DNA of 11,649 bases. Origin: a bacterium (GTDB lineage: Bacteria > JAHJDO01). The position numbers and the translations under genes are program-made. Numbering within the stretch: position 1 is the first letter of the stretch; each line of letters starts with the position of its first letter. Shown in pieces: positions 2,431-11,570 of the stretch. The stretch covers positions 1-11,649 of the forward strand of contig JAUWOV010000057.1 of assembly GCA_030611945.1 (NCBI GenBank), given 5' to 3'. The notes under the pieces were generated by a model that saw only the letters and a program-made list of their open reading frames with translations, did no database searches and was not told where the DNA came from.

Positions 2431-3422
2431 TCTATTTCTGATTTTGCGTCTCTTGCCATTAAATCCATAACTGCTTTTCGAGGATCTTTATTATTAAAAA
2501 GCACCTCGTAAATCTCAGTTGTTATTGGCATATCTACACTATATTCTTTTGAAAGGGAATGAGCCGACTGAGTTGTTTTTACGCCTTCTGAGACCATTGA
2601 CATTGAATCAAGGATTCGACTAAGTGTTTTTCCTTTTGCAATCTGCTCACCGACAAACCTGTTTCTGCTGTGTTTACTTGTGCACGTTGTAATTAAATCA
2701 CCCATACCACTCAAACCGGAAAAGGTATGTGGATTTGCTCCCATTTTCACACCAAGTCTTTTGATCTCTGCCAATCCTCTGGTAAGCAAAGCAGATTTTG
2801 TGTTATCTCCAAAACCAAGTCCATCAGAGATCCCTGCAGCTATAGCTATTATGTTTTTTAGAGCGCCGCCTAATTCAACGCCAATTACATCGGAATTTGT
2901 ATATACTCTAAAATTCTCAGACATAAAAATTGTTTGAACATGTTTTGCAGCATCCGTATCCTTCCCGGAAACCACAACTGTAGTAGGAATTTCTTTTGCC
3001 ACTTCCTCTGCATGAGATGGACCCGACAGAACAACAATATTGGTATTAGTTGTCTCTTCTGCGATTATCTCTGACATCCTTTTTAATGTTTCATTCTCAA
3101 TGCCTTTTGCAACACTTAGTTTTACAACTCCTTCCGGAACATGAGAACTTTTGGCAACCTTTCTCATCACATGGGAAGGCACAGCGTAAACTACTAAAGA
3201 GACATCTGATATGGCTTCATCTATTTTGGACGTTATATAAATTTCAGCAGGTATGTCTATACCCGGCAGAAACTTCGGATTCTTTCTCTGTTTAAGAAGA
3301 ATTTTTGCATAATCAGGGAATGCCTCCCATAGCGAAACCTCAAACCCCTTCTTACAAAGATGGATAGCTAACGTCGTCCCCCATCCGCCAGCTCCAAGCA
3401 CACAGATTTTTTTATTATTCAT
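2427..3422 (-). CDS. gpsA: Glycerol-3-phosphate dehydrogenase [NAD(P)+]
   Basis: GpsA reduces dihydroxyacetone phosphate to sn-glycerol-3-phosphate in the cytoplasm, supplying the glycerol backbone for phospholipids. The 331 residues match the usual family length. Seen: the Rossmann nucleotide loop GAGGWG at residues 10-15, AVPSHVMR near 80-87, SVAKGIE near 103-109, LSGPSHAEEVA near 132-142, the catalytic-lysine segment GALKNIIAIAAGISDGLG (K189), NTKSALLTRG at 207-216 and GLSGMGDLITTCTSKHSRNR at 236-255. All expected motifs are present and the gene appears intact. Its product is used by PlsY and PgsA, encoded upstream on the same strand, but the usual close plsY-gpsA spacing is lost because an accessory cassette lies between them. 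The upstream Shine-Dalgarno is weak and no convincing promoter was found. Confidence 0.97.
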   Translation of the reverse strand: MNNKKICVLGAGGWGTTLAIHLCKKGFEVSLWEAFPDYAKILLKQRKNPKFLPGIDIPAEIYITSKIDEAISDVSLVVYAVPSHVMRKVAKSSHVPEGVVKLSVAKGIENETLKRMSEIIAEETTNTNIVVLSGPSHAEEVAKEIPTTVVVSGKDTDAAKHVQTIFMSENFRVYTNSDVIGVELGGALKNIIAIAAGISDGLGFGDNTKSALLTRGLAEIKRLGVKMGANPHTFSGLSGMGDLITTCTSKHSRNRFVGEQIAKGKTLSRILDSMSMVSEGVKTTQSAHSLSKEYSVDMPITTEIYEVLFNNKDPRKAVMDLMARDAKSEIE

Positions 3423-3444
3423 AATAGATTAAATACTAACAAAG

Positions 3445-3463
3445 CCTTGTGTTTTATACAAGG
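3445..3463. repeat. Hairpin upstream of gpsA
   Basis: Perfect 6-bp inverted repeat CCTTGT/ACAAGG around a 7-nt loop, 23 bases before the gpsA start. On the plus strand it is followed by a T-rich run, but no plus-strand gene ends here. On the minus strand it would lie in the gpsA leader. Function is not established; it could be a weak terminator of the upstream cassette or part of the leader. Confidence 0.35.
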
Positions 3464-3490
3464 ATTTTTGCTTTTCTGGAGCATTGTAGT

Positions 3491-3509
3491 GGCAGCCCTT
3501 GCGGCTGCC
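3491..3509. repeat. GC-rich hairpin, dispersed-repeat-like
   Basis: Perfect 7-bp inverted repeat GGCAGCC/GGCTGCC with a 5-nt loop, in the 211-bp gap between gpsA (start 3422) and the membrane protein gene ending at 3634. The gap contains no ORF I would call. It is a GC-rich island in AT-rich DNA and resembles the short palindromic intergenic repeats (GTAGnGGCAG type) common in some uncultured-bacterial genomes. That resemblance is from memory, not a search. Confidence 0.55.
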
Positions 3510-3575
3510 CGTTTGGATATCAGACAATTATTAAAAATCTTTTGTCATTCTTCGATTAAATCGGGGAATCTATGT

Positions 3576-3604
3576 AGGGACAGATCGTAACCTGTCTTTT
3601 TGTT
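3576..3604. repeat. Imperfect palindrome followed by T run
   Basis: GACAG (3579-3583) pairs with CTGTC (3592-3596) around an 8-nt loop, with G-T and A-T pairs extending the stem outward. TTTTTG follows on the plus strand. It may be a decayed copy of a GTAGGGACAGGTC-type intergenic repeat. It could act as a weak plus-strand terminator, but no plus-strand gene precedes it. Confidence 0.35.
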
Positions 3605-3633
3605 TTGTTGTTAGGAGAGAATGGAAAGGTTTG

Positions 3634-4035
3634 CTAGATGGGATGCCAGGAGTTATTTTTATTGTTAGACATAATTACATGATTAATGATGTTAGATCCA
3701 ATCCCGACAAAAATTATAGATATTATCCACTGAAATGGTTTTATAAATAAAAGAATTAATTCTACTACTATCATTTCGTTAATATAATAGTTAAGAAAAC
3801 AAGGAATTTGGGAAATATATTTAATAAAATTTAATCGATAACTTTCAGTGAATAAAACACATAGTAATAGTCCGCCATAAAAAATAAGCCTAAGCCCTGT
3901 TTTAAGAAGGCTTTTGTTCTTTGTTTTGTCAGATTTGTACACATTTTTAATTAACAAAAAACAATATATACTTATGCTAACAAAAATCACTATTTCTAAT
4001 AAGCTCCACATGTCAATTACAGGGCATTTATTCAT
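3634..4035 (-). CDS. Small four-helix membrane protein, unknown function
   Basis: A 133-residue protein I do not recognise. Hydrophobic stretches at about residues 12-33, 45-62, 84-98 and 101-120 suggest four membrane helices. A basic loop between the first two (KSDKTKNKS) would favour the cytoplasm by the positive-inside rule. The tail is polar and ends NNKNNSWHPI. The gene is very AT-rich: one hand-counted 60-base line inside it (3721-3780) has 13 G or C. It follows the frameshifted membrane protein gene by 26 bases on the same strand and lies inside the cassette between plsY and gpsA. Start choice is uncertain: the ATG at 4035 has only a weak AAAGAAAA upstream, and Met9 is an alternative. 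The sustained hydrophobic pattern makes a real gene more likely than chance, but no function can be assigned. Confidence 0.55.
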   Translation of the reverse strand: MNKCPVIDMWSLLEIVIFVSISIYCFLLIKNVYKSDKTKNKSLLKTGLRLIFYGGLLLCVLFTESYRLNFIKYISQIPCFLNYYINEMIVVELILLFIKPFQWIISIIFVGIGSNIINHVIMSNNKNNSWHPI

Positions 4036-4061
4036 AAATTATTTTCTTTTAACGACTGGAT

Positions 4062-4509
4062 TTACTTTTCAACTGAAGGTGCGTCTTCAGTTGAAAAAGC
4101 GCAATCCTTGGTTGGAAAGTCTCCTCTATCTTCACGATGGTGACAGCGGAACGCCTCCGTCCACTTCTTCGCTTGAAAGTGTCGGTCGAAATCCCTGTAG
4201 GCGACGGTGATAAAGAATGCAGCACAGAATAGCACCAACACGATTCTGGCTGTGACTTGCCACAAAGTGTTTGCAGGGTTGCTAGCAACAAAGATTGCAA
4301 CAGCCACGGCACAGATTATGGAAGTCAATCCGTGGGTAGAGGAGCGAGACGAAGGCTAGTTCGGAAAGACCAGAATACACGGATGCACTGATGATTACGC
4401 TAACACCTGCCCATATCAAGCTAAGCCTACTGTTCTCACGCGAAAAATATGCCAGAATCTCCTTGCTAAGTACCTCATACTCCTTCAGAACTGCATCGTC
4501 TTGGCTCAT
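4062..4509 (-). pseudogene. Frameshifted membrane protein gene, unknown function
   Basis: Two overlapping frames read as one gene split by a single-base shift. The first starts at the ATG of 4509 (MSQDDAVLKEYEV) with an AAGGAAA ribosome site and gives an acidic, helical N-terminus, a hydrophobic helix LIWAGVSVIISASVYSG, and then LAFVSLLYPR. It then runs out of frame into a cysteine-rich nonsense tail ending near 4282. The second frame takes over near 4328 with LTSIICAVAVAIFVAS, a third helix VLVLFCAAFFITVAY, and a hydrophilic tail ending in SVEK at 4062. Joined, the product would be about 148 residues with three membrane helices. The extra base lies at about 4329-4333. The DNA is more GC-rich than its downstream neighbour (33 of 60 in line 4141-4200). 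Family not recognised. A sequencing error is an alternative to true decay. Confidence 0.6.
4066..4097. repeat. 13-bp perfect inverted repeat at the pseudogene 3' end
   Basis: Arms 4066-4078 (TTTTCAACTGAAG) and 4085-4097 (CTTCAGTTGAAAA) are perfectly complementary around a 6-nt loop. The repeat lies within the last codons of the broken membrane protein gene and two bases from its stop. There is no T run immediately after either arm, so it is not a canonical rho-independent terminator. Confidence 0.75.
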
Positions 4510-4612
4510 TCTCTTTCCTTTCCAACATTAATTATTGAACATTCACTTCTACTTTAATACTACCTTACCTCAAATTGCCTAAAACCTCAATAAATTTAAT
4601 CTCTGAGATTTC

Positions 4613-4676
4613 ACATCCCCCTGAATCCCCCTTCGAAGGGGGAATAGTTTTGCCGCAGGTAAAACTAGGGGGATGT
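4613..4676. repeat. Nested palindromic element (REP/MITE-like) overlapping the plsY stop
   Basis: A 64-bp unit bounded by perfect 10-bp inverted repeats ACATCCCCCT (4613-4622) and AGGGGGATGT (4667-4676). Inside are an 18-bp perfect palindrome centred on TTCGAA (4626-4643) and a second hairpin with 7-bp arms TAGTTTT/AAAACTA (4645-4651 and 4661-4667). As RNA or extruded DNA it can form a three-way structure. The right arm encodes the last Thr-Ser-Pro and the first base of the stop codon of plsY on the minus strand. It carries no ORF. Such C-run palindromes recur as dispersed elements in several bacterial groups (from memory). Copy number in this genome is unknown. Confidence 0.8.
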
Positions 4677-5306: not shown

Positions 5307-6625
5307 GTTGTTTCCTTTATTTTGAATTTTACAGGAACACCTTCAAATCCAAAATTATCATACAGGTTATTTTTCAGATAGTTTAGATAGTCTGTCATAA
5401 TCAAATTTCTATTATTAACAAATAAAGCAAATATAGGTGGGCGGGTTGACACTTGAGTTATGTATTTTATTTTCAACTGCTTGCTGGATGTAGAAGAGAA
5501 CGGCCTGCGTTTTTTCGCATCTTCCAACATCTTGTTAAGCACTGCAGTATTTATACGTTCCGTATAATACTTATATACATCAAATGTTATGTCCATGACC
5601 GTAAATATCTTTTCTTTTTTCAATGCGGATATAAAAACTACTGGGGCAAAATTAAGAAACTTTAAGCTAGCTCTAAACTGTTTGAGCCATATTCCCTTAT
5701 CAATACCCAGCTTTTTTGATAGATCTGCTTTATTAATTGCTATTATTAAGCCCTTTCCCTGTTCGCAGACAAAAGAAGCTATTTTTTTATCCTCCCGTGT
5801 TGGTCCTTTGGTTATATCTATAATTAAGATCGCTATATTGGATAGTTGTATAGCCTTTTGCGCTCTCATTACACTATACCTTTCAATATCTGTTTTTAGT
5901 TTGTTTCTCGCCCTAATACCTGCTGTGTCAACTAACACAAAACTTGTGTTTTTGTACTTTAGAAAGCTATCTACAGCATCTCTTGTTGTACCCGGCTTGT
6001 CGTCTACTATGAGTCTCTTATCGTCTAGTATTGCATTTACATAGGAGGACTTTCCAACATTTGGCCCCCCAACAATAGCTATTCTTAGCTCATCAGACGA
6101 TGTAACATCGTTTCCATCAGAAAATTCTTCTGTTACCTTATCTAATAAAGTATTAATATTTAAACCATGAGATGCTGAAATTGGTAAAAGTTCGTCAGTG
6201 CCAAACCTGTAGAAGTCATAAATATCGTTGGTCTTCGCTTCGGTGTCCACCTTATTAACAACTACAATATATTTTTTGTTTGTTCTTCTAATTTTATCTA
6301 TGATTTCTTTGTCTACCGGAAGAATGCCTGCCTTTGCATCAACCATAAAGATTATAAAATCCGCCTGAACAACAGCTACATCAACTTGCGCCCTAACCTG
6401 CGCAGATAGATTATCCATGCCCTCAAAATCCAGACCGCCGGTATCTACAATTTCAAAGCTTTTGCCTCCCCATAGACAAGTTCCATAGATTCTGTCCCGT
6501 GTCAGACCGGAAAAAGAGTCTACTATGCTTTTCCTTTGCCCGATTATCCGATTAAAAAGCGTTGATTTGCCAACATTGGGACGACCTAGAATTGCAACAA
6601 TAGGGTTATGCTTTTCTGTTGCCAT
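5303..6625 (-). CDS. der: Ribosome-assembly GTPase Der (EngA)
   Basis: Der is an essential double-domain GTPase acting in late assembly of the 50S ribosomal subunit. At 440 residues it has the usual architecture. G domain 1 has GRPNVGKST at 14-22, LTRDR at 41-45, DTGG at 61-64 and NKVD at 124-127. G domain 2 has GGPNVGKSS at 186-194, PGTTRD at 211-216, DTAGIR at 233-238 and NKAD at 298-301. A C-terminal KH-like domain covers about 352-440. Two small departures from common sequences: SGLTRDR where domain 1 often has PGVTRDR, and NKAD where domain 2 often has NKWD. The start at 6625 overlaps the end of pgsA by 20 bases and has only a weak ribosome site, so coupling to pgsA is likely. Confidence 0.97.
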   Translation of the reverse strand: MATEKHNPIVAILGRPNVGKSTLFNRIIGQRKSIVDSFSGLTRDRIYGTCLWGGKSFEIVDTGGLDFEGMDNLSAQVRAQVDVAVVQADFIIFMVDAKAGILPVDKEIIDKIRRTNKKYIVVVNKVDTEAKTNDIYDFYRFGTDELLPISASHGLNINTLLDKVTEEFSDGNDVTSSDELRIAIVGGPNVGKSSYVNAILDDKRLIVDDKPGTTRDAVDSFLKYKNTSFVLVDTAGIRARNKLKTDIERYSVMRAQKAIQLSNIAILIIDITKGPTREDKKIASFVCEQGKGLIIAINKADLSKKLGIDKGIWLKQFRASLKFLNFAPVVFISALKKEKIFTVMDITFDVYKYYTERINTAVLNKMLEDAKKRRPFSSTSSKQLKIKYITQVSTRPPIFALFVNNRNLIMTDYLNYLKNNLYDNFGFEGVPVKFKIKETT

Positions 6626-7142
6626 TTAAGAGTTTCACTCCGCATATCACATAATTGATTCCTGATATCACTGTAAAAATCACTGTGATCCATACAATAA
6701 AAAGAATAGAAGGAACTCTTATATTTAACAAGGCATAAATAATTGTGAAAATTTGTAAAAAAGTAGTGCACTTGCTTATTTTTGAGGGCTTGGGCTCAAG
6801 ACCTCCTAAAACAACATAAAGTATTAAAAACCCGGATATAATAATTATATCACGCGCAATGACTATGATTGTAAGAAAAGCAGGAATGCTTTTATCCAGC
6901 GTCAGCATGATAAAAGCTGTTATAAGAAGTATTTTATCTGCTATTGGGTCAGCTTTTTTACCGAACCTAGAAATCTGATTTCTTCTTTGCGCAATTAAGC
7001 CGTCTAAAGCATCTGTAATAGCAGCAACAAAAAATATACCAAGAGCTATGAGTCTGGTTTCCGGTGTTCCTTTGTATAAAAACACAGCAAAGATAGGTAC
7101 CAACAATACCCTAAAGATAGTCAAAAGATTTGCTGTATTCAT
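6606..7142 (-). CDS. pgsA: CDP-diacylglycerol-glycerol-3-phosphate 3-phosphatidyltransferase
   Basis: A membrane enzyme of the CDP-alcohol phosphotransferase family that joins CDP-diacylglycerol and glycerol-3-phosphate to phosphatidylglycerol phosphate. The 178 residues match the PgsA length. The signature is visible at residues 44-69: D44-x2-D47-G48-x2-A51-Q52 ... G61-x3-D65-x3-D69, with the RRNQISRFG context typical of PgsA. The usual arginine after the alanine (AR) is glutamine here (GCG CAA read directly). All four aspartates are retained. Hydrophobic helices flank the motif. The gene starts 11 nt after the stop of the CsgG-domain gene and ends inside der. Another CDP-alcohol phosphotransferase is possible, but the N-terminal NLLTIFRVLLVPIF and the DPIADK segment favour PgsA. 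Confidence 0.93.
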   Translation of the reverse strand: MNTANLLTIFRVLLVPIFAVFLYKGTPETRLIALGIFFVAAITDALDGLIAQRRNQISRFGKKADPIADKILLITAFIMLTLDKSIPAFLTIIVIARDIIIISGFLILYVVLGGLEPKPSKISKCTTFLQIFTIIYALLNIRVPSILFIVWITVIFTVISGINYVICGVKLLNGNRKA

Positions 7143-7153
7143 AAATGATTAAA

Positions 7154-8089
7154 CTACTGAACCTTTGTCCCGCATTTCGAACAAAACTTAGCTCCCGGCT
7201 TGAGAGATACGCCGCACTTTGAACATGTTATGCCCTGAATCTTCTTCCCGCATTCCGGGCAGAATACAGCGCCAGGAGATACTTCTGCGCCGCAGTATGG
7301 ACATTCTTCAAGAACAGCCTGTGGAATTGTCGCGCCGCAGCTCGGACAGAATTTTGTTCCTTGCTTGACCTGTGTTCCGCACTTGGGACAAGCAATCATC
7401 ACAGTGCCGGCATCCAGCAAATTCTGACAATGAGTCTGAATCTTTAACACAATATCATCAATTGCCTTTTGCGTTGCCTCTCCCATAGGAGTCTTCTTAA
7501 AACCGCCAAAACTTACTCCAAGACTTTTTGCGCCAGGCAAAGGTATAGCGGCTCCCAGCTTTAGACCCCTTCTTTTTGCTTCTCCTCTGAACCTGAGTGT
7601 CTGCATCTCTGAGGTTTCAGCATTTACAATCTTTATTATTCCCTCAACTATTGCGGTTTTGGTCTTCGCTCCAATTGAATATCCTCCAAAACTTAATCCT
7701 CCACCCATGCCTTTCTGTGAATACTCAAACACTGTAATCACTCCATTAAGAATTATCTGAACTCCTTTAATCTTTCCAATTTTCGCCCTTGTTTTTTTAC
7801 TTACTCTCCCGCTTGCCCCAAGATCCTGTTCGGCGATTATATCTTTTACATCCATTCTGCTCATTACAGAAAACTGCCCGGTCTCTGTTAATGCGCTTTC
7901 CAGCATATCAGCCATTCCTGTTCCCATACTTAATTCAGATTTTCTCCAATAATCAGTTCCAGGCGCATCTTTTGCAGTGAATTTACTTACAGCTACACGC
8001 ACCTTTCCCGCGTATACAGGACTTGAAAACGAGACAACAGCAAATAATAAAGCTAAGACAACAACTAATGACTTCTCTACACATTTCAT
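7154..8089 (-). CDS. Exported CsgG-domain protein with three C-terminal zinc ribbons
   Basis: 311 residues. Residues 1-27 are a clear signal peptide (positive start, long Val/Leu/Ala core, VYA before Gly28) with no lipobox cysteine. Residues 28 to about 225 resemble the CsgG periplasmic fold: KVRVAVSKF, MLESALTETGQFSVMSR, IIAEQDLGASGRV, AKIGKIKGVQIILNGVITVFE, and AIVEGIIKIVNAETSEM. Three near-identical zinc ribbons follow at about 234-252, 263-281 and 289-307, each CPxCG-x9-FCxxCG in outline. CsgG proper forms the outer-membrane curli pore and is a lipoprotein; lacking a lipid anchor, this one is probably a soluble periplasmic relative, not a curli secretin. Zinc ribbons are usually cytoplasmic, so their presence behind a signal peptide is odd. 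AAGGAGG about ten bases before the ATG is the strongest ribosome site on this strand. Exact role unknown. Confidence 0.85.
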   Translation of the reverse strand: MKCVEKSLVVVLALLFAVVSFSSPVYAGKVRVAVSKFTAKDAPGTDYWRKSELSMGTGMADMLESALTETGQFSVMSRMDVKDIIAEQDLGASGRVSKKTRAKIGKIKGVQIILNGVITVFEYSQKGMGGGLSFGGYSIGAKTKTAIVEGIIKIVNAETSEMQTLRFRGEAKRRGLKLGAAIPLPGAKSLGVSFGGFKKTPMGEATQKAIDDIVLKIQTHCQNLLDAGTVMIACPKCGTQVKQGTKFCPSCGATIPQAVLEECPYCGAEVSPGAVFCPECGKKIQGITCSKCGVSLKPGAKFCSKCGTKVQ

Positions 8090-8131
8090 ATCAGGAACCC
8101 TCCTTCTTTAGCTATTAATGTTAACAGATTA

Positions 8132-10428: not shown

Positions 10429-11277
10429 ATGCAAGAAATACAGACAAAAATATTGCTTGGTGATAACAAAGAGGTTTTGAGACAGTTAGGCGAAAATTCT
10501 ATTGATTTAATTGTAACATCACCGCCTTATGCAGATAGAAGAAAACAAACTTATGGAGGAGTTAAACCCGAAAAATATGTAGAATGGTTTTTGCCGATAG
10601 GGCAGCAATTATTGAGAGTATTGAAACCAACAGGGACTTTTATTCTGAATATCAAGGAAAAAGCGGAAAAAAGAGAAAGAAGCAGTTACGTGCTTGAGCT
10701 GATTTTGGCTTTGCGAAATCAGGGCTGGCTGTGGACAGAAGAATTTATTTGGCACAAGAAAAATTGCTATCCCGGAAAATGGCCAAACCGTTTTCGGGAC
10801 GCATGGGAGAGACTTTTGCAGTTTAATAAGGCAAAAAACTTCGCTATGTATCAAGAAGATGTCATGGTGCCGATCGGCGATTGGGCAAACGGCAGATTAA
10901 GAAATTTAAGCGCGATTGATAAAGTAAGAGATAACTCAAAAAGTGGCAGCGGGTTCGGGAAAAATATTTCAAATTGGCTGAACAGAGACAAGGTTTATCC
11001 GACTAATGTTGTGCAATTTGCTACTGTCTGCAACAATAAAAATCATAGTGCGGTTTTTCCCGAGGAATTACCGGAATGGTTTATTAAACTTTTTACCAAA
11101 AAATATGATTGGGTACTAGATCCGTTTTTGGGTTCTGGAACCACGACAGAGGTAGCGCAAAGAATGGAACGAAACTCTATCGGCATTGAGATAGTGCCTG
11201 AATATGTGGAAATGGCCAAAGCGAAAGTCATGCAAAAAGAGCAATCCTTGTTTCATCATAATAGGGTCAGTATATGA
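10429..11277 (+). CDS. Beta-class DNA methyltransferase (N4-cytosine or N6-adenine)
   Basis: A 282-residue DNA amino-methyltransferase that uses S-adenosylmethionine. The catalytic motif IV, TSPPY, is at residues 30-34. The SAM-binding motif I, DPFLGSGTTTEVA, is near the C-terminus (231-243), followed by GIEIVPEYVEMA. This order (catalytic motif first) defines the beta class. SPPY is commoner in N4-cytosine enzymes, but N6-adenine activity cannot be excluded. FIWHKKNCYPGKWPNRFRDAWE in the middle belongs to the conserved core. The gene appears complete. Its stop overlaps the start of the next gene (ATGA), the usual arrangement with a cognate restriction enzyme. Target sequence cannot be read from the protein. 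The ribosome site is weak, consistent with coupling to the small gene upstream. Confidence 0.92.
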   Translation: MQEIQTKILLGDNKEVLRQLGENSIDLIVTSPPYADRRKQTYGGVKPEKYVEWFLPIGQQLLRVLKPTGTFILNIKEKAEKRERSSYVLELILALRNQGWLWTEEFIWHKKNCYPGKWPNRFRDAWERLLQFNKAKNFAMYQEDVMVPIGDWANGRLRNLSAIDKVRDNSKSGSGFGKNISNWLNRDKVYPTNVVQFATVCNNKNHSAVFPEELPEWFIKLFTKKYDWVLDPFLGSGTTTEVAQRMERNSIGIEIVPEYVEMAKAKVMQKEQSLFHHNRVSI

Positions 11278-11570
11278 AAAAATTAGACCTAAACCAGATT
11301 TATGAATATGTAGAAGGGCATATTTCAATCTTTCATCAAAAAAGGTTGGATTATATTAAAAACAAAGTTGATCTATTGAAGATATTAAAGCAGAAAAATC
11401 CATATCTTTTCAAGGCAAAAAACGTGCTTACCGCTCAAGACTTGATTAAAGGATTTCTTGATGCTTTTTTGCAATCTCAAGAAGAAACATTGTTTGGAAA
11501 CTTCATTGAGCCCAAAAACCTAGATAGAAGCCTAAAAAAAGGTAGAAAGAAGCAGGCTCTGCTGGTATAA
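11274..11570 (+). pseudogene. N-terminal fragment of a PmeII-family-like type II restriction endonuclease
   Basis: 98 residues. The first 79 resemble the start of PmeII-family restriction endonucleases as I remember them: a helical N-terminus with SIFHQKRLDYI, then LKILKQKNPYLFKAKNVL, TAQDLIKGFLDAFL, and SQEETLFGNFIE. In that family the protein continues after this point into the catalytic core. Here it switches to a short basic tail (PKNLDRSLKKGRKKQALLV) and stops. The likely cause is insertion of foreign DNA near 11510. Start ATG overlaps the methyltransferase stop, and the pairing of genes supports a restriction enzyme role. The nuclease core is missing, so the fragment should be inactive. 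The family call is from recall of sequence pattern, not a search. A short unrelated helical protein is the alternative. Confidence 0.55.

Follow-up and report, generated by a model that had tools for sequence, protein, structure and literature searches.

The lipid anchor of Escherichia coli CsgG helps the protein to insert into the membrane. The E. coli pore is built from nine subunits and has 36 strands; CsgE caps it on the periplasmic side (PMC6050966). CsgG is part of a larger family, and only 171 of 601 proteins with the PF03783 domain belonged to curli systems (PMC3521004). An earlier note on the DNA described here considered CsgG relatives to be normally lipoproteins of the outer membrane, which is too strong in view of that count and of a clear lipobox, by inspection, in only eight of 24 distant relatives (L009, L037, L078, L127, L128, L129, L133 and L135), the other 16 having plain or unclear signal peptides. 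Most distant relatives carry a C-terminal beta domain of ~90 amino acids that resembles FlgT_C/TsaP. Of four relatives scanned, three show a FlgT_C match in this domain, weak and below the curated cut-off, and it is through this C-terminal region that the family profile finds TsaP/LysM-domain proteins in the PDB. None of the distant CsgG relatives inspected at sequence level has a CxxC motif.

The window, that is, the whole stretch of 11,649 nucleotides analysed here, corresponds to contig C7 in the draft genome (1.66 Mb) of an uncultured bacterium. It contains a gene in which a CsgG domain is joined to three zinc ribbons behind a predicted signal peptide. Because CsgG relatives that are not lipoproteins are common, the surprise of this protein is not its missing lipobox but its ribbons. 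The gene and its immediate surroundings are composed as follows.

7154..8089, minus strand: whole gene, coding for the predicted exported CsgG-family/triple zinc-ribbon protein of 311 aa; kept in 5/5 genus genomes
8098..8105, minus strand: putative ribosome-binding site AAGGAGGG, 8 nt before the ATG; from sequence reading
8009..8089, minus strand: predicted signal peptide, residues 1-27, signal peptidase I type, without lipobox; from sequence reading and hydropathy heuristics
7418..8017, minus strand: CsgG domain, residues 25-224, with both hairpin regions (barrel-forming in E. coli CsgG); from PF03783
7427..7429, minus strand: Cys221, in the last helix of the CsgG domain, which with the twelve ribbon cysteines makes 13 invariant ones in the mature protein; from the alignment
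7337..7390, minus strand: zinc ribbon 1, Cys 234/237/248/251; from PF13240, cysteines invariant
7250..7303, minus strand: zinc ribbon 2, Cys 263/266/277/280; from PF13240, cysteines invariant
7172..7225, minus strand: zinc ribbon 3, Cys 289/292/303/306; from PF13240, cysteines invariant
6606..7142, minus strand: pgsA-like CDP-alcohol phosphatidyltransferase, next gene downstream after an 11-nt gap; from PF01066, order the same in the genus

The start codon is secure, with no plausible alternative, because the frame upstream of the ATG is open for only six codons. The predicted signal peptide, MKCVEKSLVVVLALLFAVVSFSSPVYA followed by G, has a positive n-region, a hydrophobic core and a V-x-A cleavage site, and reading of the N-terminus revealed no lipobox either in the window protein or in its four congeners. 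The signal peptides of these congeners end in CA before an E; their Cys, which is a Tyr in the window protein, lies outside a lipobox context. All five full-length members have an x-x-A cleavage site, either V-x-A or I-x-A, and in each of them an export signal was seen, these calls being made by reading and a hydropathy rule rather than with SignalP. The signal peptide drifts in sequence (mean dN 0.135 vs 0.037 for the CsgG domain) and keeps its form. The signal peptide without a lipobox described in the earlier note is thus borne out by n-region, core, cleavage site and conserved form, and export without lipidation is supported by the same features. Given such export, the ribbons are expected in the periplasm, which supports the view that their twelve cysteines would face this compartment.

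A complete and strong match to PF03783 (114.6 bits vs a Pfam cut-off of 20.8, E 5e-33, residues 25-224) places the protein in the CsgG family and agrees with the earlier suggestion that the N-terminal domain is CsgG-like. With the family profile, CsgG is found in the PDB at E 5.5e-18 in an alignment that passes through the first barrel hairpin. Aligned with CsgG of E. coli K-12, the protein has 17% overall identity and both hairpin regions at near-equal length, the first comprising 36 residues in each protein when counted by eye. These regions are strongly conserved in the genus, and the stretch equivalent to TM2, AKRRGLKLGAAIPLPGAK, is rich in Lys/Arg and Gly. An AlphaFold model made from a six-sequence alignment was unusable (mean pLDDT 40.8). 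Assignment as a curli CsgG was rejected, as the protein scores 13.2 bits with the curli CsgG model NF011731 against an equivalog cut-off of 505, has no lipobox, and is not accompanied by CsgE (PF10627), which matched in the E. coli control only and in none of the five genus genomes. The LpoB profile (PF13036) gave 20.3 bits, below its cut-off of 22.3, over residues 60-119 only. The same genome also encodes a GNA1162-like lipoprotein of the CsgG superfamily with SH3 and LysM domains (L003, G000:C69) and a TPR-repeat lipoprotein of the CsgG family (L002, G000:C2).

The C-terminal part matches Zn_Ribbon_1 (PF13240) in three copies within residues 234-306 (83.8 bits vs a cut-off of 25, E 4.8e-24), each with two CxxC knuckles of the CPxCG type, and by this match the ribbons are members of PF13240. 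All twelve ribbon cysteines and Cys221 are invariant across six aligned sequences, and the mature protein contains an odd number of cysteines, 13. Profile and invariance together confirm the three ribbons that had been recognised behind the CsgG domain. They occupy the position of another domain of the relatives, since it is there that these carry their ~90-residue C-terminal domain.

In the searches made, the distribution of this architecture is narrow. A peptide-pattern scan of ~85,000 species genomes, a method limited to close relatives, found full-length relatives in just two MAGs, CSMAG_1431 and CSMAG_1337, both of the same kind; the remaining loci examined were ribbon-only, including some SPFH-type zinc-ribbon proteins, or CsgG-only. 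Profile searches of ~400 genomes (385 from ~260 families and 24 of one phylum, partly overlapping) found no CsgG and ribbon fusion outside the genus, all matches being CsgG-only or ribbon-only, and the phylum-wide searches around two relatives covered two to three genomes each. No CsgG relatives were found in viral contigs, in which the window protein as query retrieved zinc-ribbon matches only, and a plasmid search also returned ribbon matches only. The literature searched yielded no CsgG domain and zinc ribbon in one protein; the two occur as separate proteins in PMC7880944, and PMC7284324, which mentions both, was judged unrelated by its title and abstract. Within the searches made, the combination has so far been seen in only one uncultured genus, and rare fusions may occur in unsampled lineages. 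The architecture pointed out in the earlier note is therefore real, and its taxonomic spread, as far as these searches reach, amounts to a single genus.

Within this genus, the protein is present in all five genomes, the four others carrying the same 311-aa protein at 87-92% identity, and the six sequences align without gaps except for one shortened by a contig end. Both halves of the gene are under purifying selection: averaged over comparisons among members, dN/dS is ~0.07 in the CsgG half and ~0.1 in the ribbons. An assembly chimera and a decaying gene were both rejected, because the same fusion and flanks recur in five genomes and gene order and low dN/dS are kept among members. A second copy, 91% identical (L036, DAOVKY010000172.1), is found in the MAG CSMAG_1431 (genome G001); since it has the same pgsA-der flank, a strain mixture in the MAG bin is more likely than a paralogue. 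In some genome pairs dS differs sharply between the CsgG half and the ribbon half (0.45 vs 0.14 for G004-G002 and 0.56 vs 0.23 for window-G001, taking 7154-7405 of the window as the ribbon-coding part), which suggests recombination between congeners inside the csgG-like gene.

The genus keeps one gene order: queE-queC-queF lie on one side of the csgG-like gene and run divergently from it, and on the other side come pgsA, der, plsY, gpsA and a merR-type gene. With only 11 nt between the csgG-like gene and pgsA, and overlaps between pgsA and der and between der and plsY, cotranscription of the run from the csgG-like gene to plsY is plausible. This neighbourhood had been taken as a hint at an envelope role, a weak one, since the conserved cluster also contains the housekeeping genes der and, downstream past a tRNA-Pro, secA (named from sequence only); as evidence for a lipid role such a cluster is weak too. 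The plsY-gpsA space (3422-4665 in the window) varies from ~50 bp in L149 to ~0.8-1.3 kb in the window, L035 and L150, and its small ORFs differ between the window and L035. Elsewhere in the window, an ORF for an EcoO109I-type restriction endonuclease (11274-11570) adjoins an N4/N6 DNA methylase (10429-11277); at only 98 aa, matching profile positions 2-73 of 198, this nuclease seems to have been truncated or frameshifted close to the end of the contig.

The compartment into which the ribbons would be exported bears on how they fold. The genus has an outer membrane, because Omp85 is present in all five genomes. DsbA, DsbB and VKOR were detected in none of these drafts, which are 62-96% complete, while the named control genomes matched; another, unrecognised oxidase could replace Dsb. 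Within 1.45 Mb of the genome to which the window belongs, 31 exported proteins with 1-12 cysteines have an even number and 53 an odd number (n=84, with crude export calls), vs five even and none odd in the tiny sample that E. coli gave when processed in the same way. Exported proteins thus lack an even-cysteine bias and give no sign of selection for paired cysteines. Among the exported ORFs of this 1.45 Mb, the window protein is the only one with a paired-CxxC ribbon. An ORF of the same genome without detectable Dsb/VKOR (L181:8757-11468, G000:C30) is predicted to be exported with 46 cysteines in 874 mature residues. Since neither DsbA/DsbB/VKOR nor an even-cysteine bias could be detected, it is on this indirect evidence more probably zinc than disulfides that folds the ribbons, and the 13 mature cysteines are more readily explained by three sets of four zinc ligands and one extra cysteine than by complete pairing in disulfides. 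The earlier proposal that the periplasm may support zinc or disulfide folding of the ribbons is thus strengthened for zinc rather than disulfides by the failure to detect these oxidation proteins in a genus with an outer membrane.

The reading that we prefer, and to which we give about an even chance, is that of an envelope ring of the CsgG family, possibly a pore in the outer membrane, with the zinc ribbons as a periplasmic interaction tail. In this model, Sec would export the protein, signal peptidase I would remove its signal peptide, and it would fold in the periplasm, where its CsgG domain would assemble as a ring, like the family, and the two hairpins may insert into the outer membrane to form a pore. 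The usual C-terminal FlgT_C/TsaP-like beta domain would have been swapped for three zinc ribbons in this genus, each likely binding one zinc, as is proposed because the envelope is without the usual disulfide-forming machinery. The ribbons would hang on the periplasmic side of the ring, where CsgE caps curli CsgG or where relatives have their FlgT_C-like domain, and would there form compact units for binding a partner or substrate. Ring, pore, zinc loading and binding role are features that we infer, the ring and its periplasmic tail or cap by analogy with E. coli CsgG. The model is favoured by the complete CsgG domain with hairpin regions of E. coli-like length and by the replacement of the relatives' usual C-terminal domain by ribbons, while the lack of a lipid anchor and of CsgE speaks against it; no substrate candidate for the putative channel was identified. 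A bolder form of the model, which we regard as unlikely, is a secretion channel of the CsgG type in the outer membrane. A covalently attached ring of zinc ribbons (e.g., 9 x 3) would cap or gate it at its periplasmic mouth and, in an envelope that has no disulfide-forming system, zinc would stabilise in place of disulfides and might also gate the pore.

Several other explanations have to be weighed against the ring. The protein may be a soluble periplasmic member of the CsgG family that never enters the outer membrane, its ribbons serving as a structural tail or scaffold. This is possible, if clearly less probable, and would agree with the missing lipobox, with the plain signal peptides of most distant relatives, which may be soluble too, and with the Lys/Arg- and Gly-rich TM2-equivalent stretch; what it leaves unaccounted for are two hairpin regions of near E. 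coli length that are strongly conserved in the genus. A second question is the state of the cysteines. That the ribbons are oxidised, as disulfide-held structural cystine knobs instead of zinc sites, would suit their location on the periplasmic side, where other bacteria often pair cysteines. It is nevertheless improbable with knuckles of the zinc type, an odd number of mature cysteines, no detected DsbA, DsbB or VKOR in five genomes, and exported proteins that lack the even-cysteine bias of the small E. coli sample.

Two further explanations concern export itself. The hydrophobic N-terminus could remain uncleaved and anchor the protein in the inner membrane, with the ribbons sensing zinc or the redox state. 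No positive evidence emerged for this sensor or scaffold idea of the earlier note, which is quite improbable given the good x-x-A cleavage site in all full-length members and the lack of a signalling domain or partner kinase next to the gene. Still further removed is an N-terminus that is not an export signal, with ribbons that would both fold and function in the cytoplasm. The cytoplasm is almost always where tandem CPxCG zinc ribbons are found, and among 108 tandem-ribbon ORFs in the fetched loci a signal-peptide-like start precedes the ribbons only in this family and in L074, which has two TM segments. However, nearly all CsgG-family relatives examined begin with a signal peptide or a lipoprotein signal, and the form of the signal peptide is conserved despite its sequence drift, which makes a cytoplasmic location very improbable.

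In all, the csgG-like gene represents a real, conserved domain swap inside the known CsgG family and overturns nothing. Conserved exported tandem ribbons joined to a pore-family domain would cleanly test whether zinc-folded ribbons can exist in a periplasm that has no Dsb/VKOR, and would also show that CsgG-family rings can exchange their C-terminal domain as a module. Among the systems compared, the CsgG proteins with an FlgT_C/TsaP-like domain (e.g., L009, L117 and, from Kiritimatiellae, L037) share with the window protein the CsgG domain, an export signal and ~23-34% identity over the protein, but have the ~90-aa beta domain without CxxC where it has three zinc ribbons. E. coli CsgG (PDB 4UV2/4UV3/3X2R) shares the CsgG fold by profile and similar hairpin lengths at 17% identity, but is a lipoprotein without zinc ribbons that is encoded in the csgDEFG operon and works with CsgE. 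LpoB/GNA1162-like envelope lipoproteins are distant kin of the CsgG core and differ in being lipoproteins and in having no ribbons. The best match to the three C-terminal ribbons is provided by tandem zinc-ribbon proteins (PF13240/PF12773) such as the SPFH-type ones of Clostridia and Methanocorpusculum, which share the ribbons alone with the window protein and, lacking a signal peptide, look cytoplasmic.
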